Shown here: piece by piece, positions 16,954 through 44,018 of the stretch
Layout of the letters: the number at the start of each line of letters is the position of its first letter
Position numbering within the stretch: the first letter of the stretch is position 1
From: Proteinivorax hydrogeniformans
GTDB taxonomy: Bacteria > Bacillota > Proteinivoracia > Proteinivoracales > Proteinivoracaceae
DNA length: 64,000 bases
Reading direction: 5' to 3'
Assembly (NCBI RefSeq): GCF_040515995.1
Contig: NZ_CP159485.1
Span: 1,240,001-1,304,000 of the forward strand
Notes under the pieces: model-generated
Told to the model about the DNA's origin: nothing
Seen by the model: only the letters and a program-made list of their open reading frames with translations
Databases searched by the model: none
Program-made: the position numbers and the translations under genes

Positions 16954-16970
16954 ATAACCATAATGAAAAG

Positions 16971-17131
16971 TATCTCGTTAGGTGAGGCTACTATATGAAC
17001 ACAGGCTGTTGCCCAGAAATGTCTAGAGACGCCAATGGGTAGAACAGGCACTGCCGAAATAAGGCATGCTTAACACAGCTGAGCAAAAGCTCTACGTCAT
17101 ATAGTGTCAAAGCCCAAACGTATGAGGTAGG
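16971..17131 (+). ncRNA. M-box (ykoK leader) magnesium riboswitch
   Basis: The leader contains the conserved M-box segments in order: GTTAGGTGAGGCTACTATAT, AACACAGGCTGTTGCCCAGA, GACGCCAATGGGTAGAACAG, GGCACTGCCGAAATAAGGC and a closing strand ending in GAGGTAGG. It precedes an mgtE magnesium transporter gene, the classic target. High magnesium stabilises the fold and favours the downstream terminator (17159-17188). Confidence 0.95.
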
Positions 17132-17158
17132 TGAACTATACTATAGTTGTGCCTTTAT

Positions 17159-31046: not shown

Positions 31047-32642
31047 ATGAAAAAATTATTAGCATTGTTTTTGGTCGCTTTTTTAACTTTTGGGGTAGTG
31101 TTAGCACATAATCCACAAGTAGCCTATGCATCTAGCTCTAGAATCTCAGTAAGCGGTGGCAATGGCTATGTAGGAGAAAGGGTTACAGTCACAGTTAGCC
31201 TCTCCGGTAGCGGAAATGTAAGTGGTGGACATGTAGCTTTGCAGTATGACGGCTCAATTTTAGAGCTAGTAAATGCTGAGTCAGGCAATCTAGGTATGGG
31301 AGCGATAAACGAGAACTATGGGCCTAACACTGTCTACCAAAACTGGGCTAACACAAGCACAAAGACAAGTGGTACAGTGATGCGGTTAACATTTAGACTT
31401 AAAAAAGAGGGAAGGGCTAACCTTAGAATAACCGACCATAACCTTGAAGGAGTTTCCAACGTTTCTACTTCAAACAACCATATCACATCAACAAAATTTG
31501 TAACTCCCAGCTCTGTTTCTTTAAATAAATCCAACATCAACTTAAATGTTGGCGAAACAGATAGCCTGTCAGCAACTGTTAGCCCAAGTAATGCTACGAA
31601 TAAGAACGTTTCATATTCTTCTAGCAACACCAGCGTAGCGACAGTAAACTCAAGCGGAACAGTATCCGCTGTGGGTGAAGGTACTGCTACAATAACTGTA
31701 ACTACTCAATCAGGAAATCGGACAGCCACAGCTAATGTAAAGGTGTCTGCCATACCGGTAGAGTCGATAGAACTAAGTGAAAGCCATTTAGAATTAATTG
31801 AAGAAGATACAGCAGAAGTCTCAGCTACAGTTAGACCAAATAATGCTACCAACAAAAGTGTTACTTGGAGCTCAGCGGACGAAAACATAGCAACCGTGTC
31901 TTCAGATGGAGTAATAACTGCCCGCCGCGAAGGAAGCACTGTAATAACAGCCGAAAGTAACAATGGCGTAACAGCAGAAGTTTCAGTTGACGTTTCTGCT
32001 CCTGAGAGAATAGCAGTTGAATATGATTTAAGTAAAGATTCCAATAACTTCAAAATAGATATGGACAAGCTTAAAGAACGCCCGGCATATAGAGAAGTGA
32101 GAATCTCAAATGAAGGCGTTGAAGTTTTAATTCCAGCTACAGTTCTTTTAGATACCATCGAGAGCTATGGTATCACCGACTATTCAGAAGTGTATATAAA
32201 AGTGGACGAACTTGATACGGTTTTACCAAGACAATTTAGATCCGGTTCCCCTATATTCACTTTCTCTTTAATGGTAGATGATGTAAAGCTATCAAACTTC
32301 TCTGAAAGCATAAGAAAAACCTTTAACGTAAACGGAGAAGTAGAAGACTGGGATAATTTAGCGCTATATTGGCATAACCCTGACACAGATCAATGGGTTA
32401 AGCAAATTACAGAAGCTAATCAAGAAGAAAATACCGTAACAGCTTATATCAATCACTGGAGTACCTATGCACTATTAGAAGATAGCACATTAAGCTTTAT
32501 CGAAGCAGCAGAAGAGTCGGGCGCTGACTGGATAATTGTTATGATAGCAGCGATATCCAACCTAATGATAGGTGCCGCAATTTCTTACTTCGTTCTCCAA
32601 CCCAAAGGCAAGCAAAAAAGAAAAGCTAATAATCATGTATAA
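31047..32642 (+). CDS. Membrane-anchored cohesin-domain surface protein with Ig-like (BIG_2) repeats
   Basis: 531 residues with AGGGGAGG before the ATG. Signal peptide 1-29 (cut near AYA-SS), cohesin-like beta sandwich about 30-145 (GYVGERVTVTVSLSG, LQYDGSILELV, GTVMRLTFRLK), two BIG_2 Ig-like domains (about 153-232 and 234-312), an unknown extracellular domain (about 315-485) and a C-terminal TM helix (about 490-515) with a basic tail. Cohesins bind dockerins; the very next gene encodes a dockerin. I infer that this protein docks that amidase at the cell surface. The cohesin assignment is by sequence pattern and should be tested by profile. Confidence 0.82.
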   Translation: MKKLLALFLVAFLTFGVVLAHNPQVAYASSSRISVSGGNGYVGERVTVTVSLSGSGNVSGGHVALQYDGSILELVNAESGNLGMGAINENYGPNTVYQNWANTSTKTSGTVMRLTFRLKKEGRANLRITDHNLEGVSNVSTSNNHITSTKFVTPSSVSLNKSNINLNVGETDSLSATVSPSNATNKNVSYSSSNTSVATVNSSGTVSAVGEGTATITVTTQSGNRTATANVKVSAIPVESIELSESHLELIEEDTAEVSATVRPNNATNKSVTWSSADENIATVSSDGVITARREGSTVITAESNNGVTAEVSVDVSAPERIAVEYDLSKDSNNFKIDMDKLKERPAYREVRISNEGVEVLIPATVLLDTIESYGITDYSEVYIKVDELDTVLPRQFRSGSPIFTFSLMVDDVKLSNFSESIRKTFNVNGEVEDWDNLALYWHNPDTDQWVKQITEANQEENTVTAYINHWSTYALLEDSTLSFIEAAEESGADWIIVMIAAISNLMIGAAISYFVLQPKGKQKRKANNHV

Positions 32643-32684
32643 ACATGATCTATTATAAGTAGTTCGTACTGAGGGGGGAGAAAA

Positions 32685-34508
32685 ATAAGAAAAATACTGA
32701 TAGTAATTATCTCATTTTTGTTTTTTATTTCAAATATGACAGTACCAGCGCATGCAGAGGGTGATGAGCAAAAAAAAGATTTAAGCCCTGATAGCTTTCT
32801 AACAGGAATTGAGATTTTAGGAGAAAGCATTGATACTTTTGAACCAGAACAGTTTAAGTATGAAGTTGTAATACCGACTGGTGTAGACTATGATGACTTA
32901 GAGATTAGTGCTCTAAAAAGCGATCCCAAAGCAAGTGTTCAAGTAAATAAAGTGCAAAAAGAAGAAAGAATAGACATTGTAGTGACTGCCCAAGATCAAA
33001 GCAAAAGTATTTATACACTAAACTTACAAAGCAAGCAAAGTTCTGACAGCTCTTTAAAGCATGTGGAAGTAGATGGGGAAAAATACCAACTAGAACCTGA
33101 TGAAACAAAAGAAATAACCCTACCTTATGGATCTGATTTACCTAAAATAATACCATTTGCCACTTCAAGTGAGGCATCTGTTAGTCAGGAACTGCCTAGT
33201 AAGCTGCCAGGTCAAGTAAAGATTGTAATCGAAGCCGAAGACGGCTCAGAGTCAAGCACATATAAGGTACTATTACTTGAGGGAGAGCAAAAGCTAGAAA
33301 AAATTAACTTTAAAGAACAGCAAATCTTTATATCTCTTCAAGAAAGTAAACAGCTAGAATTATCTGTAAAGCCAGCAGAGGCTGAGTTGCCTGAAATTAA
33401 ATGGTCCAGTTCTGACAGTGACATAATTCAGGTAAATGATGAAGGGGAACTTTTAGCAAAAACAGTTGGGAAAGCAGAGATTACAGCTCAGGTTGAGACC
33501 GAAGAAGGACCAATAACAGCATCTTTAACAGCTAACTCTTTTAAGCACGGAGATGTAACTGGAAACGGTAAAGTGGAAGTGGCTGATGCTATAGAAATAC
33601 TTAGGTATGACGCCAAACTAGTAAAAGAAGTAAGTGATGCCTTCTACCTAGCCGGGGATCTTAACAAAGACGGCCGAATAAACGCAGCTGATGCAATTTC
33701 TATTCTAAGATACTTGGCTAAACTAGAGGACTATCTAGGGCCTCCGCCACAAGCGGATACGGACTTTACAGTAATCTTAGACTCCGGACATGGGGGAGCT
33801 GACGTAGGAGCTGTCTATCGCGATTCCCGGGGAAGAGTGCTATACACCGAATTAGAATTAAATGATCAACTAACAGAAAAAATATCCGAAGAGTTGAGAA
33901 AAAGTGGTGTTAACGTAAAATACACAAGACACTACTCAGAAAACTATACCCTAGGTTTAAAAGAAAGAATGGAGATTGCCAATAACATGGATGCAGACCT
34001 CTTTATCAGCGTTCACCATGATGGCAGTTCAAATTCCAATGCAAAAGGAGTCTCAACTTTCTATAGTACCTATCTTCCTAGGATACAAACAGATACTGTT
34101 TATGTTGAAAACAGAACAACAGGCCAAAGACACGAATATGTTGCAGAACGTCGTGTAAATGGTGTAAGCAGGCTGTTTTTCAAGGATGACAATGGTAATG
34201 TAGTAAGTGGATCATTTTCAGAATACAGGGCATACGATGAAAATCCGCCACCAGAGTCAGCAGCTAGTGAGGAACTAGCCAAACGATTATTTGACGGACT
34301 AGCAGATACAGGCCTTAGAAAGCGTACTTGCTCTGATAGCAGATACTATGTTACTAGAAATAGCGTAGTACCTTCAGTTTTAATAGAGGCTGGCTTTGTC
34401 ACAAACTATGATGACGTTACACAAGCTGCAGATCCAGAAGTCCAGAGAATAAGAGCTCAAAGAATTGCTGGTATAATTGTCCAGTTTTTAAATGAGCAGA
34501 ATAAATAA
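32685..34508 (+). CDS. Secreted dockerin-bearing N-acetylmuramoyl-L-alanine amidase (apparent ATA start)
   Basis: 607 residues if read from ATA at 32685. Only that start gives a complete signal peptide (IRKILIVIISFLFFISNM, cut near AHA-EG) and a correct spacing to GAGGGGGGAG (32671-32680); the next canonical start, TTG at 32718, falls in the middle of the hydrophobic core. Order: cadherin-like beta domain (about 35-115), a second beta domain, BIG_2 (about 203-282), a two-repeat type I dockerin (about 289-350: GDVTGNGKVEVADAIEILR and GDLNKDGRINAADAISILR, calcium-loop Asp/Asn present), and Amidase_3 (about 361-605; zinc ligand His369 in DSGHGG, SVHHDG, catalytic LIEAGF). It follows the cohesin gene by 42 bp in the same direction. 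Confidence 0.88.
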   Translation: MRKILIVIISFLFFISNMTVPAHAEGDEQKKDLSPDSFLTGIEILGESIDTFEPEQFKYEVVIPTGVDYDDLEISALKSDPKASVQVNKVQKEERIDIVVTAQDQSKSIYTLNLQSKQSSDSSLKHVEVDGEKYQLEPDETKEITLPYGSDLPKIIPFATSSEASVSQELPSKLPGQVKIVIEAEDGSESSTYKVLLLEGEQKLEKINFKEQQIFISLQESKQLELSVKPAEAELPEIKWSSSDSDIIQVNDEGELLAKTVGKAEITAQVETEEGPITASLTANSFKHGDVTGNGKVEVADAIEILRYDAKLVKEVSDAFYLAGDLNKDGRINAADAISILRYLAKLEDYLGPPPQADTDFTVILDSGHGGADVGAVYRDSRGRVLYTELELNDQLTEKISEELRKSGVNVKYTRHYSENYTLGLKERMEIANNMDADLFISVHHDGSSNSNAKGVSTFYSTYLPRIQTDTVYVENRTTGQRHEYVAERRVNGVSRLFFKDDNGNVVSGSFSEYRAYDENPPPESAASEELAKRLFDGLADTGLRKRTCSDSRYYVTRNSVVPSVLIEAGFVTNYDDVTQAADPEVQRIRAQRIAGIIVQFLNEQNK

Positions 34509-34513
34509 TTAGT

Positions 34514-34565
34514 AAAAAATCACCACTTTTGTGTTTTTAAAAGCACAGAGTTGGTGATTTTTTAT
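34514..34565 (+). terminator. Terminator of the cohesin-amidase unit
   Basis: Arms AAAAAATCACCA / TTGGTGATTTTTT around a longer loop with an inner stem. Confidence 0.8.
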
Positions 34566-34598
34566 TGTGCTATGCAAAAAGTAAATCTAATAAACCTA

Positions 34599-34627: not shown

Positions 34628-34662
34628 GACATATGTGTTTTACCAAAATGGGAGGGGAAAGA

Positions 34663-35697
34663 ATGTTAAAATCAAATAAACAACAAAACAATAAAAAGAA
34701 GAAAACAAAAAAGCCAATGTCAAATAAGAAAAAAATAATAGCGATAGTTAGTTCAATTATCTTGCTATACTTAGCTATCTGGGGTGGAACCGGTGCTTAT
34801 CGAATTTACAGCCTATATGATGAGATGTACGATAGCGCTGAAGAAGATGAAATTATGGATGTTATTCATACAGAAGAAATTGGCGAAGAAGCGCCAGAGC
34901 CAGAAGATGAGGAGACTCTATCACGGGTGCAGAAAATAAGAAGAGACATGGATGCTATATATGATCAAGGCAGAAGTGAAAAAGATCCAAACCTCTTAAA
35001 CGTCCTGTTAATAGGTGTAGATGGCCCAAGAGCAGATACCATAATGTTAGCTCAATATAATAAAGAAACAGGGAAAGCTGCAATGCTATCTATCCCAAGG
35101 GATACTTACGTTAAGATTCCCGAGCGCGGATATGACAAGATAAATCACGCCCACGCCTTTGGAGGCGTAAACCGTCAAAGGGCATCAGTGGAAAACTTTT
35201 TAGATATTCATATCGATCACTACGCTAGAATAGACATGCAATCATTTTCTAGAGTAATAGATGTACTTGGTGGAGTTGAAGTCCACGTATCTAGCGACAT
35301 AATTGACAACAGAGACGGATCGGTATTTAAGAGTCAAGGAACTCATAACCTAAACGGCTCTCAAGCTCTAGATTATGTGCGTTTTAGATCAGACAACAGA
35401 GGAGACTTCGGTCGTATCGATAGACAGCAGCAAGTAATGATGGCAATAATGGACGAGCTTACAAAGGCAAGCAACGTAACAAGGTACCTACAACTAATGG
35501 AAGAAATCAGTCCCTATGTAAGAACTGATATCACCCCAGGAGTAGTAACAAGCAACTGGAGAGCATTCAACAGCCTATCCAGCTCCAACGTACAAAGAGA
35601 GACCCTATCAGGAGATAACCTAATGATAAACGGAATCTACTACCTAGAAGTTGACATGGAACAAGCCAGAGAAAAAGCAAAAAACCTGACGTATTAA
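34663..35697 (+). CDS. LytR-CpsA-Psr (LCP) family protein
   Basis: 344 residues from the ATG at 34663 (GGAGGGG upstream). A Lys-rich cytoplasmic tail (1-25), one TM helix (about 27-46), and an extracellular LCP domain (about 105-305). LCP enzymes move lipid-linked glycopolymers such as teichoic acid onto peptidoglycan. Pyrophosphate- and metal-binding positions are kept: GPRADTIML, SIPRDTYVKIP, KINHAHAFGG and YVRFRSDNRGDFGRIDRQQQ. It is followed by a GGAAAGT array and T2 terminator. Two relatives lie at 36513 and 39311. Confidence 0.94.
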   Translation: MLKSNKQQNNKKKKTKKPMSNKKKIIAIVSSIILLYLAIWGGTGAYRIYSLYDEMYDSAEEDEIMDVIHTEEIGEEAPEPEDEETLSRVQKIRRDMDAIYDQGRSEKDPNLLNVLLIGVDGPRADTIMLAQYNKETGKAAMLSIPRDTYVKIPERGYDKINHAHAFGGVNRQRASVENFLDIHIDHYARIDMQSFSRVIDVLGGVEVHVSSDIIDNRDGSVFKSQGTHNLNGSQALDYVRFRSDNRGDFGRIDRQQQVMMAIMDELTKASNVTRYLQLMEEISPYVRTDITPGVVTSNWRAFNSLSSSNVQRETLSGDNLMINGIYYLEVDMEQAREKAKNLTY

Positions 35698-35705
35698 GGT
35701 TAAAA

Positions 35706-35735
35706 AGTGGAAAGTAGAAAGTAGAAAGTAGAAAT
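35706..35735. repeat. GGAAAGT heptamer array (B3)
   Basis: About four units a few bases after the LCP stop codon, then a T2 terminator. Confidence 0.85.
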
Positions 35736-35737
35736 GC

Positions 35738-35776
35738 TAAAAAAGCTGGTGAGCACAAGTGCTCACCAGCTTTTTA
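35738..35776. terminator. Terminator type T2 after the LCP gene
   Basis: Arms AAAAAAGCTGGTGAGCAC / GTGCTCACCAGCTTTTT with a two-base-shorter loop than at 18630. Confidence 0.88.
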
Positions 35777-35988
35777 GCATCTTTCCCCTCGAAGAGGTAG
35801 GGGTTGACCACTGTGTCAACCCATCAGCAAATGGCTAGCCAAAATGGCAGTGACCACCAAAACCTCGCTGTTACTAGGGTCTTAGGGTGCTATGTTTTTT
35901 GTTACCAACCTCCAACCTCATATCACTAATTACCATTATTTAATTGTAAATTGTAAATTCGCTTTTAATCTCCTTTCCAACTAGGGAC

Positions 35989-36120
35989 AGGTGCCCATAA
36001 TATTATCCCGGGATTTGGGGTGGCGATCAGCTGTTTCACCAATGCTCGGCTTTTATGGCTTATGGGTCGCTACAAAACCCTTCCCACCAATCAAACCCTA
36101 AAATAATATTACGAGCACCT
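35989..36120 (+). mobile_element. R1 MITE-like element, internal deletion (132 bp)
   Basis: Both ends of R1 are present (AGGTGCCCATAATATTATCC and ATAATATTACGAGCACCT) but about 70 bases of the middle are missing. Confidence 0.75.
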
Positions 36121-36155
36121 TCAGCGGGCAGAGCAAAAGATGAGTCTGCAACCAA

Positions 36156-36224
36156 GGGACTCAGGGACTGGTATGCCGTACCACCGCTTCCCAGTGGGAC
36201 GGTCGTACCTGTCCCTCGCGTCCC
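36156..36224. repeat. R5 foldback element, copy 3
   Basis: 69 bp with ends GGGACTCAGGGACTGGTA / TACCTGTCCCTCGCGTCCC. Followed by R3 at 36258. Confidence 0.8.
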
Positions 36225-36512
36225 GAGATGGGAAACTGCAATTACTAGTAGAACCATCCCCTCGAAGAGGTAGGGGTTGACCACTGTGTCAACCCATCAG
36301 CAAATGGGCGGCAAATATGGAAGTTTCCCCCCCAAAAAAAAACCTACCATAGCCACCGTGACAACTAAGGTCTTAGGGTTATGTACTTTATTACCAACCT
36401 CCGACCTCATATTACTTATTACCACTACAATGCATAATATCCAACAACATTACCAAAACTAATCTTAATGTCCTAAACTGGGGCATAAAACACAACAGGG
36501 GAGGGATACCAA

Positions 36513-37496
36513 ATAAAGAAAATCACACTCGCCATTTTAGTTATAACACTATCCCCACTAATAGCCATTACAACTATACTTGCTTACAATATATATAGCC
36601 TCTATACAACCACCCAAGCTACTCATCCTCAAAACCATATAGCTTATGACACTATTTTCGATAGTGAATACAACCCCATACAAAACTATAAACCACCACA
36701 AAACCAACCAGACGTAGAAGCAAATGACACGGAAAATGATGCAAAAGAAAACACACCCGAAAACACACAACCACAACCTAAAAACAAAGAAGAGGCAAAT
36801 GAAGAGCTAAACACAGAAAAAATACACCCTCCCTCTAACGAGAAATGTATCCAAGAGCAAATGAGTCAAATCTACACCCAAGGTAGAAGCAATCCAGATC
36901 CCAACTTAGTTAACGCCCTATTTGTGCGCACTAATAACCACGAGGCCGAATATCTTATGGTTGCCCAATATAACGAAGAAACGGAAAAAATGGCCATGAT
37001 AATAATCCCAAAAGAAAGCTATACAAAAATTCCCTCGCGAGGATTTAATCAACTAGGCTTATCCTACGGCACCCTAGGGCTGGAAGGATTAAAAACCACA
37101 ACAGAAAATCTCCTTGATATAGACATCCATTACCATGTTCATATCACAAGAAGTTCAGTAAGAACCATAATGAATGCTTTTGAAACCCAACTAGGAGTAG
37201 AAATCCCACCAGCAGGAACACCATCACAAGAGGCCATCACACAAATGACAACAGACATAAGAAATGTCCGCAACGTTCCCAAATACATAAGTTTAATCCT
37301 AGAAGTAGCCCCTCATATAAATACCAACATAGGACCAACAGCAATAGTAAACCACAGACAAATACTATACAAAATCCCCAACACCCAAGTAGAAGTAATA
37401 GAACTAAAAGGCGAACCAATAGACATAGAAAACAAACAATACCTTAAACTAGACATCCCCACATGGAGAAAAAACGTGGAAAAAGTAACGTATTAG
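36513..37496 (+). CDS. Degenerate LCP-family protein (apparent ATA start)
   Basis: 327 residues if read from ATA at 36513, seven bases after AGGGGAGGG (36498-36506). No ATG, GTG or TTG occurs in frame before ATG 36861, which would delete the N-terminal TM helix (about 4-26) and the acidic, Asn/Pro-rich linker, so ATA is the best-supported start. The LCP-like part (about 115-327) is alignable with the protein at 34663 (IYTQGRSNPDPNLVNALF; IIPKESYTKIP) but the RAD, SIPRD, KINHA and RFR...RIDR positions are changed or missing. It is probably not catalytic. Codon choice is unusually C- and A-rich compared with neighbours. The stop codon runs into a heptamer array. Confidence 0.75.
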   Translation: MKKITLAILVITLSPLIAITTILAYNIYSLYTTTQATHPQNHIAYDTIFDSEYNPIQNYKPPQNQPDVEANDTENDAKENTPENTQPQPKNKEEANEELNTEKIHPPSNEKCIQEQMSQIYTQGRSNPDPNLVNALFVRTNNHEAEYLMVAQYNEETEKMAMIIIPKESYTKIPSRGFNQLGLSYGTLGLEGLKTTTENLLDIDIHYHVHITRSSVRTIMNAFETQLGVEIPPAGTPSQEAITQMTTDIRNVRNVPKYISLILEVAPHINTNIGPTAIVNHRQILYKIPNTQVEVIELKGEPIDIENKQYLKLDIPTWRKNVEKVTY

Positions 37497-37611
37497 GAGA
37501 TAGAAGATAGGAGATAGAAGATAGGAGATAGAAGATAGGAGATAGAAGATAGGAGATAGAAGATAGGAGATAGAAGATAGGAGATAGAAGATAGGAGATA
37601 GAAGATAGGAA
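37494..37611. repeat. GATAGRR heptamer array (A3)
   Basis: Starts inside the TAG stop codon of the preceding gene and consists of eight regular 14-base units GGAGATAGAAGATA. Followed by a T1 terminator. Confidence 0.95.
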
Positions 37612-37616
37612 TGGAC

Positions 37617-37653
37617 AAAAAACTAGTGAGCATAAAATGCTCACTAGTTTTTT
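37617..37653. terminator. Terminator type T1 after the degenerate LCP gene
   Basis: Arms ACTAGTGAGCAT / ATGCTCACTAGT followed by TTTTTT. Confidence 0.85.
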
Positions 37654-39180
37654 GACTGCAACCAAGGGACTCAGGGACTGGTATGCCGTACCACCGCTTC
37701 CCAGTGGGACGGACGTACCTGTCCCTCGCGTCCCGAGATGGCAACTGCAATTACTAGAACCTTCCCCCTCGAAGAGGTAGGGGTTGACCTCTGTGTCAAC
37801 CCATCAGCAAATGGCCGCCAATATGGCAATGACCAACAAAACCTACTTAAGAGAGGCAATTAAGGTCATAAGGATAAGTGCTATATCACCAACCTCACAC
37901 CTAAATCACCCATTACAATACTAATGCAACTAATTTTGCAATCTTTACCGTGGCCAAGCAGGGTTTTCACTTTACTTGTTGTTCACCTGACCCTTTCCAA
38001 CTTTCTACTAACCAACTTTCCGCTGACCCTAAAGCGGAACCAATAATAAAAACAATTGGCCGCGAAAACGTATAAACTTGCTAATTCTGCTGGGACAAAG
38101 GGCATGTTTTAAATCTGCTAACTCTGCTGGGTCTGGTTCGGTAATAAAGTTGAAGGTGGAAAGTGGAAGCTGGAAGCTGGAGTTCGTTGTGTGGGTCCTG
38201 CGCTCTTATGAGCTAGATCCTTCGGTGTCCCTCAGGATGACTTTTTTGCGTATCTCTGCGGTGAACTTGCAAACCCCTTATGTTGTAGTAACTTTTACCA
38301 ACATAAGACCTCATACTACATATTACCACTACTCATGTAACTAATATCGCAATCTTTACTCTTTACCGTGGCCAACTAAGGTTCTAATGGTAATCCCTCG
38401 CAGAGGTAGGGGTTGACCACTGTGTCAACCCATCAGCAAGTGGCTGGCCAATATGGCAATGGCCTACAAAACCTACTTAAGAGAGGCAATTAAGGTCATA
38501 AGGTTAAGTGCTATATCACCAACCTCACACCTAAATTACCCATTACAATACTAATGCAACTAATTTTGCAATCTTTACCGTGGCCAATTAAGTAGAAAGC
38601 AGAAAGTTGGGAAGTTGGAAAGTTGGAAAGTGGAAGCTGGAGTTCGTTTTGTGGGTCCTGCGCCCTTGTGGGCTAGATCCTTCGGTGTACCTCAGGATGA
38701 CTTTATTAATAAATAAGGTATCCCTATTTTTTTATAATGATTTAATTGCTCCTGTCTTACCGAGCCTTTCCAATATGCTCACCACATACATGAATGAGGT
38801 TGGACCCAGCATGTAACTAGTTTCGTTATGTTTACCGTCGCCAATTAAGGTTTAAGGTTTTCAAAGCAAGCTACCATCCTCACACTACCTATTAGTTATT
38901 ATCATATCTAATCACATAAGCTCTTTTTATACCTGCTGCACTTAAAACCGGGTCTTTCCAAAATGGATACCACATATGAATGGGTTTGGACCCAGCATGT
39001 AACTAATATCGTAATCTTTACCGTGGCCAATCAAGGATTTATGGTTTTCAAAGCAAGCTACCAATTTCCGATCTCAAATTACTTATTTACCGTGGCCAAC
39101 TAAAGATTTTATGGTTTTCAAATCAAACCGACTAACCTCAGACACCATATGACTTATCAACACAAGTCTGTCTAACCACC
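37654..39180. repeat. Intergenic repeat block 6
   Basis: No gene is seen. In order: R5 (37666-37734), R3 (37764-37830), partial R2 (about 37920-37965), R6 (38027-38134), GGAAAGT-type tract, R4 (38191-38241), partial R2 (about 38333-38385), R3 (38395-38461), a near-copy of 37840-37950 at 38470-38580, GGAAAGT-type tract (38594-38637), R4 (38651-38701), R2 (38758-38853), R2 (38943-39042) and a partial R2 (about 39085-39115). Confidence 0.88.
37666..37734. repeat. R5 foldback element, copy 4
   Basis: 69 bp, directly behind the T1 terminator and followed by R3 at 37764. Confidence 0.8.
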
Positions 39181-39310
39181 TATCTAACATAAAAAATCTA
39201 CTAGCATTGTTTGTCAATGTATAATATAATATTTATGGCAAATACAATATTTTAGGGTTTTTAAAGAGTTTGTATAGGGTTAAAAAATAAAGTTATAGTG
39301 GGGTATGATT

Positions 39311-41200
39311 ATGAAAAATATTACAAAAAAAATAGCTATAGTAACAATCCTAGCTATGCTGCTAGTGGGTGTAATAACCGTAGACGCATGGGCTGAGGAC
39401 AACGACACAAACGATGTTGAAAGCACTAACGTACAACAAGTTACAGAGGATGAACAAGAGCCGGAACCTGAACCAGAACCGGAGCCAGATCCTGAACCAG
39501 AGCCAGAAGAGGAAGAGGAACCAGAGCCCGAACCAGAACCGGAGCCAGAGCCAGAAGAGGAAGAGGAACCAGAGCCAGAAGAGGAAGAGGAACCAGAGCC
39601 GGAACCAGAAGCAGACCCAAAAGGTACCATCATCGTTTACTATATTGACGAATACGGTAACAACCTAAGAGAACCTACAGTTCTTGAAGATCAGAGTATG
39701 GGGGAATATAGCTTTGATGCATTTAGCATCTCTGGCTATGAGTTAATAAGTCCCTCTAGCGAAACTGCTACCTTAACAGAAGATGGACAAACAAAAGAAG
39801 TAACCTTTATATACCGAGAGCTCCCTGAAGAGCCTCCAGAACCTGAGGAAGAGGAAGAGATAGAAGAGCGAATAGTAGAAAAGATCATCATCAACAACAA
39901 ACCCTTTACAACTGAGCACTTTGTTGGCGATGAACTTAATACAAGCGGATTAGTAGTAAGCAAAGTGTATACTGATGGCACAGAAGAGCTTATACCTTCA
40001 GAAGAATTAACCTTTGAAGGGTTTGATAGCACAGAACCAGCTGAGCAGCAAGAGGTTATCGTTAAGTGGCAAGACTATGAAACAAGCTTTACAGTTAGCA
40101 TCGAAGAACAACCAGGTACTTCACTGGGGACTATCATAAGAGGCATATTACTTTTCCTTCTTATATTTTGCTTGATAGCTGGTTTAGCAGCTATAATTGT
40201 CATTAAAAAAAGAAAGAGCAAAACCAAAAGCAAAAAACCTTATGCAAAGTCTATTAGCGACACACAAGACAAAAAGACAGACAAAAAAACAAAACCTAAA
40301 AACCGCAAAAAGAAAATCATAATTTCAGCTATATCGGTGCTGTTAGCAACGCTGCTACTGCTTTATGTAGGATCAATGTACCTTTTAGGAAGAATAGAAA
40401 GAGAAAGAATCTCTCAAGATGATGAATCCTTAGGAATCACATCTGAAGGAGAAAGAGGTATAACCAACGTAGCTGTTTTTGGTATCGACTCAGAAGGCGA
40501 TATGCGAGGGCGCAGCGACGCAATTATGATCCTAACCTTAGACGAGAAACACAAAAAGATTAAAATAACTTCTGTTGTAAGAGACTCATACGTAAACATA
40601 CCAGGAAGAGGAATGGATAAAATCAACCACGCCCATGCTTATGATGGATCTGAGTTGGCAATCAAAACTTTAAACGAAAACTTTAACCTAGATATTAGGC
40701 ACTTTGTATCGGTAAACTTTGACTCCATGCCCGCTATTGTAGACGCTGTAGGTGGTGTGGAAGTTGAGGTGACAAATGCAGAGGCAAGACAAATAAGTGG
40801 TATTGATGGTGCCGGAACCTACACCTTAAGCGGCGAACAGGCTCTAAGATTTTCTCGCATTAGAAAAATCGATTCAGACTTTGAAAGGGCCCGCAGGCAA
40901 AGAGATGTAATGGAATCTGCCATAGAAGCTGCTTTAAATACTCCGGTTACTTCTTACCCAAGAATGTTAAATGATGTATTCCCTCATTTAACAACAAACC
41001 TAACATCCACAGAAATGCTAAACCTAGGCCGCAAAACAGTAATGCAAAACATAACAACAATAGAACAACAACAATACCCAGATTCAACAATAGCAAGAGG
41101 ACAGATGATAAACGGAGTATATTACTATGTCTTTGACATAGAAGAAGCAGCTAAAAACCTAAGAGCCTATATCTATAAGAACATACCACTACCAAAGTAA
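39311..41200 (+). CDS. LCP-family protein fused to extracellular MucBP/Ig-like domains
   Basis: 629 residues from ATG 39311 (GGGG seven bases upstream; ATG 39305 is too close to it). Signal peptide 1-28 (DAWA cut), a Glu-Pro repeat stalk (about 46-104), a MucBP-like domain (about 106-168, GTIIVYYIDEYGNNL), an Ig-like domain (about 185-262), a TM helix (about 270-292), a Lys-rich cytoplasmic loop (about 293-335), a second TM helix (about 338-360) and an LCP domain (about 385-585). LCP active-site positions are kept (RGRSDAIMIL, VVRDSYVNIP, KINHAHAYDG, RFSRIRKIDSDFERARRQR). Typical LCP proteins lack the first half. It may couple wall or glycan sensing to polymer ligation. Confidence 0.9.
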   Translation: MKNITKKIAIVTILAMLLVGVITVDAWAEDNDTNDVESTNVQQVTEDEQEPEPEPEPEPDPEPEPEEEEEPEPEPEPEPEPEEEEEPEPEEEEEPEPEPEADPKGTIIVYYIDEYGNNLREPTVLEDQSMGEYSFDAFSISGYELISPSSETATLTEDGQTKEVTFIYRELPEEPPEPEEEEEIEERIVEKIIINNKPFTTEHFVGDELNTSGLVVSKVYTDGTEELIPSEELTFEGFDSTEPAEQQEVIVKWQDYETSFTVSIEEQPGTSLGTIIRGILLFLLIFCLIAGLAAIIVIKKRKSKTKSKKPYAKSISDTQDKKTDKKTKPKNRKKKIIISAISVLLATLLLLYVGSMYLLGRIERERISQDDESLGITSEGERGITNVAVFGIDSEGDMRGRSDAIMILTLDEKHKKIKITSVVRDSYVNIPGRGMDKINHAHAYDGSELAIKTLNENFNLDIRHFVSVNFDSMPAIVDAVGGVEVEVTNAEARQISGIDGAGTYTLSGEQALRFSRIRKIDSDFERARRQRDVMESAIEAALNTPVTSYPRMLNDVFPHLTTNLTSTEMLNLGRKTVMQNITTIEQQQYPDSTIARGQMINGVYYYVFDIEEAAKNLRAYIYKNIPLPK

Positions 41201-41206
41201 AAAAAA

Positions 41207-41245
41207 CAAAAGCAAGCCCAAACACAAAAAAAGGGCTTGCTTTTA
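41207..41245 (+). terminator. Terminator of the LCP fusion gene
   Basis: Stem AAAAGCAAGCCC / GGGCTTGCTTTT. It is independent of the array-terminator module that follows. Confidence 0.88.
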
Positions 41246-41261
41246 CTCTGTCAACGAACAA

Positions 41262-41339
41262 TGGAAAGTGGAAAGTTGGAAAGTGGAAAGTAGAAAGTGG
41301 AAAGTAGAAAGTGGAAAGTAGAAAGTGGAAAGTAGAAAT
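41262..41339. repeat. GGAAAGT heptamer array (B4)
   Basis: About eleven units of GGAAAGT / AGAAAGT, then a T2 terminator. Confidence 0.9.
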
Positions 41340-41342
41340 GCT

Positions 41343-41382
41343 AAAAAAGCTGGTGAGCACAAAGTGCTCACCAGCTTTTTAG
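41343..41382. terminator. Terminator type T2
   Basis: Arms AAAAAAGCTGGTGAGCAC / GTGCTCACCAGCTTTTT. Lies 100 bp behind a conventional terminator, so it is redundant for the LCP gene. Confidence 0.85.
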
Positions 41383-42435
41383 CAACTTTCCTCTCGAAGA
41401 GGTAGGGATTGACCTCTGTGTCAACCCATCAGCAAATGGGCGGCAAATATGGAAGCCCCCTAAAAAAACCTACCACTGGAATATTGCTTGACTTCCCCTA
41501 AACAGAATAACACTAAAAAAATGAGTTTAGACCATGCACTTCAAACCGGGTCTTTCCAAAAATGAGTCATATAACTGAATGAGTTTGGACCAAGCATGTA
41601 ACTTATTTCGTGATATTTACCGTGGCCAATTAGGTTTTGCGCTTTATTTATAGTTAACTCTAGTAAAGGTAGAGGACCGAGCAAGAAACCAATATAAAAA
41701 CAATTGGCCGCGAAAACGTATAAATCTGCTTATTCTGCTGGGACAAAGGGCATATTTTAAACCTGCTTGGGTCTAAAAATAAATGTTTTGTAAGGGAGCA
41801 CTACAGTGCTCCAGCAGAAGTCATTATGGATAAAAAAAATACTCCTAGAAGTAGATACGCTAGCAAAATGGAATGTAGAAAGCGGATTAAACAGGGGCTT
41901 TCCAAAATGGACACCACACATGAATGAGTTTGGACCCAGCATGTAGCTAATTTCGTAATCATTACCGTGGCCAATTAAGGTTTTAGGGTTAAAGAATGTC
42001 AGTTCAGGTGCACATAATATTATCCCGGGATTTGTGGTGATGATCAGCTGTTTCACCAATGCTTACCTTTTATGGCTTATGGGTCGCCAGTAATGGTGGG
42101 TACTGTCTCTGCAAACCAGCTAGGGTTGGCCCAACGCCATAAAACCCTTCACGTGGTTCAAAAACGCTTCTCACCAATCAAACCCTAAAATAATATTACG
42201 AGCACCTTAAGCAGGCAAAGCAGGAGCAAAACAGATATTTCCTGCATTTAAAACCGGGTCTTTCCAAAAATGGATACCATAAATGAATGGGTTTGGACCC
42301 AGCATGTAACTAATTTCGTAATCTTTAGGCCAATAAAGGTTTTAGTATCTTTAGCGTTTTATATATAAACCTACGACATTATATTTCTTCTTACTACTAC
42401 TCATGTAGCTAACATAGTGATGTCCCCGTGGCCAA
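41383..42435. repeat. Intergenic repeat block 7
   Basis: No gene is seen. In order: R3 (41391-41455), R2 (41542-41638), R6 (41678-41774), R2 (41887-41985), R1 (42006-42207), R2 (42248-42344, with a short deletion in its right part), partial R2 (about 42400-42440) that overlaps the end of the GxxExxY gene. Confidence 0.88.
42006..42207 (+). mobile_element. R1 MITE-like element, copy with divergent left flank (202 bp)
   Basis: Full length with AGGTGCACATAATATTATCC at the left and ATAATATTACGAGCACCT at the right. The left flank differs from other copies, which supports a left border near 42006. Confidence 0.78.
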
Positions 42436-42834
42436 TTAAGGAGATTTAGGTTTACTAATTGCTTCTGAAGTCCTTAGCAATCTTTTTACTTGCAACTCTT
42501 TTGTACCGAAGTTAATTAAAATTCCTAAAGCATAATTTGAAGCATTTAAGTAGTGGAGTAATTGAGCATAATGTTCAGCACTTAAATTGCTTACACACTT
42601 TAATTCAAGGATTATTTTATCCTCAACTAATAAGTCAGCAAAATAACTACCTATTTCTTTACCTTTGTATTGTAGATTAATAGGAAACTGTTGTTTGAAA
42701 TTTACACCTCTTAGCTCAAGCTCATATGATAGTGCATCCTCGTATGACTTTTCTAGAAGCTTGCTACCTAGCACTCTATGAACTTCATAGCAAGCTCTAA
42801 CTATCTCACCAGAAAGTTGCTCATAAACAAGCAT
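42436..42834 (-). CDS. GxxExxY family protein
   Basis: 132 residues on the minus strand with GAGGTGG before the ATG. The family signature region is GSKLLEKSYEDALSYEL, and DLLVEDKIILELKCV resembles the PD-(D/E)xK nuclease core. Function of the family is not established. It is the only gene inside repeat blocks 7 and 8, and its last codons and stop (TTA on the plus strand at 42436) come from a partial R2 element. It may be a passenger gene; its flanks show no transposase. Confidence 0.88.
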   Translation of the reverse strand: MLVYEQLSGEIVRACYEVHRVLGSKLLEKSYEDALSYELELRGVNFKQQFPINLQYKGKEIGSYFADLLVEDKIILELKCVSNLSAEHYAQLLHYLNASNYALGILINFGTKELQVKRLLRTSEAISKPKSP

Positions 42835-43680
42835 TAAACCACCTCACCAAATTGTAATGCTTAAACACTTCTACATTCCACCTAAACTTCCTTCACAATT
42901 TAAAAATATTAAGCTTTGATATGAGCACTTAACAAGAGCAAACAAAAAAGAGTATACTTTAAACTTAATACCTTAAAAACAGCCTCATTCCAATATGAAT
43001 ACCATAGCTTGGACCAAGCATGTAACCAATACCGCAAATCTTCATCGTGGCCAATTAGGTAGAAAGCAGAAAGTTGGAAAGTTGGAAAGTTGGAAAGTGG
43101 AGCTGGGGTTTGTTGTGTGGGTCCTGCGCCCTTGTGGGCTAGATCCTTCGGTGTACCTCAGGATGACTTTTTAGGATGTCTCTGCGGTGGATTTCCCCCC
43201 TTGTGTTGTGATAACTTTTTACCAACCTTACATTTGCATCCTAAATTGCTTTTTAAAACAGGGTCTTTCCAAAATGGACACCACACATGAACGAGTTTGG
43301 ACCAAGCATGTAGCTAATTTCGTGATGTTTACCGTGGCCAATTAGGTTTTAGGGTGAAAGAATGTCAGTTCATCAAATTACATACTAAACCTCCGAGCTC
43401 CTATTACTTATTATCACACTACTAATGTAGGCTCTTTGATTCCTATACCTGCTTTAAACCGGGTCTTTTCAATATGGGTACCATAAATGAATGGGTTTGG
43501 ACCCAGCATGTAGCCAATATCGTAATCATTACCGTGGCCAATAAAAGTATTTATGTCTTTAAGCCTTTAAGCCTTATATACCAACCTCCGACCTCATATT
43601 TCTTACTACCATTATTAAAAAATAATCATTACCGTGCTAACCAAGGTCCTAGATTTATGGGCTAGCATTACAACTTTCTA
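42835..43680. repeat. Intergenic repeat block 8
   Basis: No gene is seen. In order: divergent R2 (42974-43059), GGAAAGT-type tract (43061-43100), R4 (43117-43167), R2 (43253-43351), R2 (43454-43545), linker CCAACCTCCGACCTC, partial R2 (about 43622-43645). Confidence 0.85.
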
Positions 43681-44018
43681 CCTAAAAAGTGAAACCTTTT
43701 GACAAATATTTCGTCTAATTATATAGAAGATATTTGTACTTGCCTTTTACCCAAAACTTACTTATAATATAACACGTCAATCTTTTTTATATAATTATAC
43801 AAAAAAAACAAAATAACAAGCCAGTAACACATTTTACAAAGAAACAAGGACTAAGAACAACAACTATAGAATATATGTTTAATGGCACCAAAATTGATAA
43901 ATTTTAAATTTTATTTAACAACAACTAAAACAACTATATTATTCTATTTATAATTATAAAATAGAGTAGAGATAGCTAATAAATAAGCTTAAAAAGCTTA
44001 ACTGGGGTGGAGAAAGAA
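43681..44018. other. AT-rich leader before tagO
   Basis: About 340 bases of AT-rich sequence without repeats of the named families. No promoter could be chosen with confidence among several TATAAT-like hexamers; no structured RNA is evident. Confidence 0.4.

Follow-up and report, generated by a model that had tools for sequence, protein, structure and literature searches.

What does a cohesin–dockerin gene pair do in a bacterium whose dockerins are carried by no plant-polysaccharide enzyme? The question is raised by two adjacent genes in a 64,000 nucleotide stretch of the Proteinivorax hydrogeniformans chromosome (contig NZ_CP159485.1, positions 1,240,001 to 1,304,000; hereafter the window). 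The first encodes a predicted surface protein with one cohesin domain (the anchor), the second a secreted peptidoglycan amidase with a dockerin (the dockerin-amidase). Searching the complete chromosome that holds the window (G000, 2.83 Mb) recovered one cohesin and two dockerins, and both dockerins were on peptidoglycan hydrolases, one the window amidase and the other a SagB-like glucosaminidase with its gene at a distance of 66 kb. Neither a multi-cohesin scaffoldin nor a dockerin on a plant-polysaccharide enzyme, the features expected of a cellulosome, was detected in this genome-wide search. Judging from the sequences analysed here, it is likely that the membrane-anchored cohesin keeps autolysins at the inner wall through docking that depends on calcium.

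Profile searches and structure modelling both indicate that the cohesin domain of the anchor is genuine, as the preliminary description had proposed. Scanned alone, the domain (residues about 34–157) matched the Pfam Cohesin family PF00963 at 43–44 bits (E about 4e-11), and it reached 42.8 bits in the whole-genome PF00963 search, where the curated cut-off is 24.1 bits. A hmmscan of the full-length anchor did not recover the cohesin, probably owing to the dominance of its Big_2 repeats. A medium-confidence AlphaFold2 model of the domain, built from only two sequences (predicted local distance difference test, pLDDT, 65), resolved 8 strands and agreed with the nine-stranded jelly-roll fold. All of the top 50 PDB matches to this model were cohesins (Foldseek, best E 2.4e-6), hence the predicted fold is that of a cohesin and not only immunoglobulin-like (Ig-like). 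The matches include 2jh2, 2vo8 and 2xdh, which we take to be noncellulosomal cohesins (Clostridium perfringens glycosidases, Archaeoglobus). The Ig-like repeats and C-terminal transmembrane (TM) anchor described earlier were also found, as two Big_2 domains and a C-terminal hydrophobic segment with a basic tail.

The dockerin of the second protein matched PF00404 (Dockerin_1) at 32–35 bits against a cut-off of 22.9 bits. Its duplicated 12-residue calcium loops, DVTGNGKVEVAD and DLNKDGRINAAD, each with a helix after it, agree with the proposed two-repeat type I dockerin. The Amidase_3 domain is complete, as claimed, with the zinc ligands and catalytic glutamate all present (H358, E378, H433 and E557, TTG numbering) and conserved with the orthologue in a same-family relative, G002. 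The other dockerin protein of the genome (700 aa, with Big_2, SH3_3 and Glucosaminidase domains) has a catalytic part that matched the NCBIfam SagB model ‘peptidoglycan release complex glucosaminidase’ at 184 bits (E 2.7e-54), which falls short of the curated cut-off for the whole protein (425), and the neighbours of its gene, as read from open reading frames, are wall-polymer synthesis genes (TagF-like transferases, ATP-grasp, epimerase). Given a single cohesin and two dockerins among an assumed 2,700 or so genes (2.83 Mb), we estimate the chance of the window pair being adjacent at random as ~0.0015, and the arrangement recurs elsewhere.

In our sequence comparisons, the strongest functional clue is the presence of a dockerin in place of a wall-attachment module. 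A congener, G001, lacks cohesins and dockerins altogether. Its gene order mnmA-PhzF-LCP1-LCP2-LCP3 (LCP, LytR-CpsA-Psr) is the same as that of G000 with only the pair missing, between PhzF and LCP1, which makes the pair a discrete cassette. In the SagB orthologue of the congener (60% identity over residues 440–698), three CWB2 modules (CW_binding_2, PF04122) stand at the place of the Big_2/dockerin part of the G000 protein. Genome-wide, CWB2 domains number 0 in G000 versus 12 in G001, hence the dockerin appears to behave as a swappable attachment module.

Across the family, including the relatives G002, G003 and G004, every dockerin on a chromosomal enzyme belongs to a peptidoglycan hydrolase, and these hydrolases are of three unrelated types. 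In G002, an anchor orthologue (33–43% identity) adjoins a dockerin-amidase orthologue (38–39%), with the gene order inverted relative to G000; at a separate locus, a SpoIID-SH3-dockerin gene is followed directly by a gene whose TM product is cohesin-like (19 bits, under the cut-off) and then by a second cohesin gene. G003 and G004 have one anchor orthologue and one SpoIID-SH3-dockerin each, and the G003 SpoIID-SH3-dockerin gene adjoins an LCP gene. The SpoIID-dockerins of these three family members would fit a sporulation machine, in which the anchor gathers Amidase_3, SpoIID-like and glucosaminidase enzymes for engulfment or the spore cortex, like the SpoIIDMP complex, and the window amidase has sub-threshold matches to the CwlD and AmiA models as well. 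Such a role seems improbable, as no sporulation genes were recognised beside the pair, whose neighbours are wall-polymer genes, and SpoIID/LytB-type proteins act in vegetative cells too. The only other family dockerin (88 aa) is encoded within a prophage lysis module of G002. Small (84–88 aa), TM-anchored, two-repeat dockerins were observed directly 5' of holin and M23 endolysin genes in prophage lysis modules of two unrelated genomes (L054 1492–1755 in G002, L274 4836–5087 in G561), and had no match in INPHARED phages.

Each of the two helices begins with a DAIx[ILV]L motif in all five family dockerins that co-occur with an anchor of the type in alignment A1, on amidase, glucosaminidase and SpoIID enzymes alike, and each genome with these dockerins has one such anchor. 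Among the 98 distinct dockerin segments collected this doubled motif occurred in six, with a single occurrence in the 93 outside the family five. In the SpoIID dockerin of G002, whose gene neighbours cohesins with another domain layout, the motif is instead DLLTIQRHLL / DLLMVQRHLL. Some of the motif sharing could stem from common descent of the modules.

The restriction of the family’s dockerins on chromosomal enzymes to peptidoglycan hydrolases, the recognition motif common to unrelated enzymes and the cell-wall-binding module in the dockerin’s place in the congener all strengthen the case for a tether. The earlier suggestion that a surface protein holds a wall hydrolase at the membrane by docking is thus supported as a prediction by genome-wide exclusivity, by linkage in G002 and by the coupled absence and CWB2 swap in G001. 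In the proposed mechanism, the anchor would cross the membrane once and extend one cohesin on an Ig-like stalk into the inner cell wall, and the secreted amidase and SagB-like glucosaminidase would dock on that cohesin via calcium-stabilised dockerins. Docked enzymes would be retained and positioned close to the membrane, at the place where fresh peptidoglycan and LCP-ligated polymers are added, and tethering would replace diffusion away or direct wall-polymer binding by the enzymes. Amidase with glucosaminidase, and SpoIID/LytB-like enzymes with Amidase_3, are combinations known to act jointly. Docked hydrolases might instead digest foreign walls, to feed or to compete, with neighbouring or dead cells as the targets; cohesins and dockerins classically serve to display degradative enzymes at the surface, and one cohesin here would hold two complementary peptidoglycan activities. 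We consider this unlikely, as a short-stalked anchor with one TM pass should extend no further than the inner wall, enzymes of the SagB and SpoIID/Amidase_3 families are known to work on the wall of their own cell, and the neighbouring genes are LCP and wall-polymer genes.

Several observations weigh against a tether. The expectation that the pair would be found as neighbours in related genomes held for G002, with the order inverted, but not for G003 and G004, where the anchor and SpoIID-dockerin genes are unlinked. The exchange of dockerin and CWB2 is not strict, since the nearest SagB relative in G002 (57%), a genome with cohesins, has other N-terminal repeats and no dockerin. The AlphaFold2 model of the dockerin was of low confidence (pLDDT 56) and too weak for use. 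Finally, cohesin-fold domains occur in some Bacillota that have no dockerin (L038–L045 type), so a cohesin match alone is no proof of docking. Such dockerin-free genomes would suit an arrangement with no docking at all, the cohesin fold being another Ig-like stalk domain and the dockerin a calcium-stabilised spacer. However, joint gain and loss with cohesins is not expected of a spacer, and among 150 relatives 10 had both cohesin and dockerin, 15 cohesin only, four dockerin only and 121 neither (Fisher p = 1.9e-6). Nor would a spacer be expected to show repeated adjacency across families, a shared motif on unrelated enzymes or a swap with CWB2, and we regard the absence of docking as very improbable. 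The dockerin-free cases themselves (L038, L039, L041, L042, L044 and L045) have a C-terminal cohesin-like domain in a protein of ~680 aa, encoded beside ExbB/ExbD/TonB-like and coiled-coil surface genes. These ExbB/TonB-linked proteins were considered as relatives of the anchor and rejected, their genomes being without dockerins and their architecture different.

More widely, dockerins were detected in 47 of 399 genomes of a phylum sample, at least eight of which have a dockerin on a peptidoglycan hydrolase (G000, G002, G003, G004, G079, G478, G501 and G588), a client count that depends on the loci fetched; G170, whose enzyme was unreadable from its stretch, was excluded from the counts. Two distant families, f61 and f85, have in common a SagB-like/cadherin-like/dockerin protein, in most cases with SH3. 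A cohesin gene follows the SagB-like-dockerin gene in six of the seven f61/f85 genomes examined (G079, G215, G295, G207, G478 and G501; not detected in G361), several of the cohesin matches being weak (21–28 bits). In G588, a gene for a glycoside hydrolase family 25 (GH25)-dockerin protein is followed by a weak cohesin-like gene. Dockerin clients in other genomes include subtilases, leucine-rich repeat proteins, a heme-binding protein, phosphoesterases and a GH2 beta-galactosidase, hence the predicted role of cohesin–dockerin outside cellulosomes is that of a general surface plug, with peptidoglycan hydrolases a recurrent client and not the sole one. On balance, we lean slightly towards a dedicated, Bacillota-wide, non-cellulosomal system whose clients would be the cell’s own peptidoglycan hydrolases (amidase, SagB-like glucosaminidase, SpoIID lytic enzyme, GH25), in which the dockerin would be a portable tag interchangeable with CWB2-like wall-binding modules and one membrane cohesin would gather an autolysin set. 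Behind the SagB-like-dockerin and cohesin genes of G207 (L276 7513–8796) lies a gene for a likely M23-type peptidase with a coiled-coil-like N-terminal part (by eye), likely a further wall hydrolase of the cluster. Contig searches gave no match with a single protein as query and were swamped by Big_2 repeats with the anchor alignment; plasmid and phage searches were uninformative.

Table 1. Features of the cohesin–dockerin gene pair and its downstream flank, in window coordinates.
Feature	Position	Strand	Evidence and remarks
Cohesin anchor gene, 531 aa	31047..32642	+	Signal peptide, cohesin, two Big_2, membrane-proximal domain, TM segment, short basic tail; orthologues in G002, G003, G004
Anchor signal peptide, MKKLLALFLVAFLTFGVVLAHNPQVAYA-S	31047..31133	+	By eye from sequence
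Cohesin domain, sole one in genome	31146..31517	+	Pfam PF00963 and Foldseek
Anchor Big_2 repeat 1 (stalk)	31512..31736	+	Pfam PF02368
Anchor Big_2 repeat 2 (stalk)	31755..31985	+	Pfam PF02368, two stretches; limits approximate, by eye
Anchor membrane-proximal domain, end ...YWHNPDTDQW...NHWSTYALLED	32007..32486	+	Conserved in family; no Pfam match
Anchor single TM segment, then basic tail LQPKGKQKRKANNHV	32529..32594	+	Sequence; position conserved in anchor alignment A1
Dockerin-amidase gene	32685..34508	+	Probable ATA start behind GGGGGGAG, 42 bp past anchor stop
Cadherin-like domain	32829..33023	+	Pfam PF12733
Dockerin-amidase Big_2 domain	33312..33500	+	Pfam PF02368
Type I dockerin, two calcium-loop/helix repeats, DAIEILRY and DAISILRY	33546..33716	+	Pfam PF00404, 32–35 bits; alignment A5
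Amidase_3 (N-acetylmuramoyl-L-alanine amidase)	33771..34475	+	Pfam PF01520, 128.6 bits; codons of conserved H, E, H, E at 33789, 33849, 34014, 34386
Terminator-like hairpin AAATCACCA...TTGGTGATTTTTT with T run, 3' of amidase stop	34515..34566	+	By eye; closes the two-gene unit
LCP wall-polymer ligase	34633..35697	+	Syntenic in G001, where the pair is missing

The true start of the dockerin-amidase is probably ATA 32685 (Table 1), because it restores a complete signal peptide, IRKILIVIISFLFFISNMTVPAHA, and makes the reported 42 bp gap between the genes exact; the mechanically called TTG 32718 would truncate the signal peptide. A strong Shine-Dalgarno sequence with ATA behind it as the one plausible start was seen both here and at the second LCP gene (36513). 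In the congener G001 (L287, reverse complement, about 11050 and 5475), the LCP2 orthologue starts with ATC and LCP1 apparently with CTG, and rare start codon use in this genus is possible. The LCP genes reported next door were located downstream of the pair, starting at 34633, 36513 and 39305. The hairpin behind the amidase is outside the hairpin scan listing, the scan admitting short loops only, and an RNA element search of the pair’s leader found none. The spaces between the LCP genes (35700–39250 and 41200–43900) are filled with 14 bp tandem arrays and with dispersed direct repeats (50–140 bp) of at least 13 families, with related repeats in the same spaces of G001. Elsewhere in the window, an M-box magnesium riboswitch (16967–17133, 152.7 bits) lies upstream of an MgtE magnesium transporter gene.

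The pair shares its cohesin fold and two-repeat calcium-loop dockerin with the cellulosome type I system of Clostridium thermocellum and others, but differs in having a single cohesin instead of a multi-cohesin scaffoldin, a TM anchor instead of S-layer homology or sortase attachment, and both dockerins on peptidoglycan hydrolases. The CWB2 modules of Clostridia likewise keep peptidoglycan hydrolases and proteases on the wall, but their binding partner is a wall polymer and not a membrane protein. Noncellulosomal cohesins and dockerins are also used outside cellulose degradation in C. perfringens glycosidases and Archaeoglobus; unlike the clients here, these are secreted host-glycan enzymes or archaeal proteins and not self-wall hydrolases.

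Our survey of open-access literature on dockerins or cohesins and peptidoglycan found no such system described, though single cases may stand in other noncellulosomal cohesin papers, and the preliminary statement that no well-described system of this kind exists holds in that literature with one exception. This nearest case is a single Ruminococcus flavefaciens protein, RflaF_05439 (NlpC/P60-XDoc), a possible peptidoglycan peptidase whose dockerin is said, from unpublished data, to bind the cell-surface cohesin ScaE (PMC3573020). Unlike the pair here, it belongs to a 220-dockerin cellulosome, ScaE is sortase-anchored, there is no dedicated gene pair and the peptidase role of NlpC/P60 is putative (PMC3573020). 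In the SagB-SpdC peptidoglycan release complex of Staphylococcus aureus, a glucosaminidase is held at the membrane by a dedicated partner (PMC12272431), as is proposed for the SagB-like second dockerin protein of G000. SpdC, however, is an integral protein of CAAX-protease-like type in direct contact with its enzyme, whereas the plug here would be generic and common to two enzymes. Under the terms looked up in a 2024 genomic survey of cellulosome bacteria, peptidoglycan-hydrolase clients are not mentioned (PMC11557425). The docking modules themselves are known; what is new is the predicted cohesin–dockerin docking of own-wall hydrolases.

How Gram-positive cells position autolysins without lysis is a long-standing question, so far answered by modules that bind the wall directly or by dedicated membrane partners, SpdC among them. 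If the tether proposed here is true, a modular cohesin–dockerin plug would be a third answer, one that is biochemically well understood and immediately testable, and cohesin–dockerin biology would extend from plant eating to the building of a cell’s own wall.

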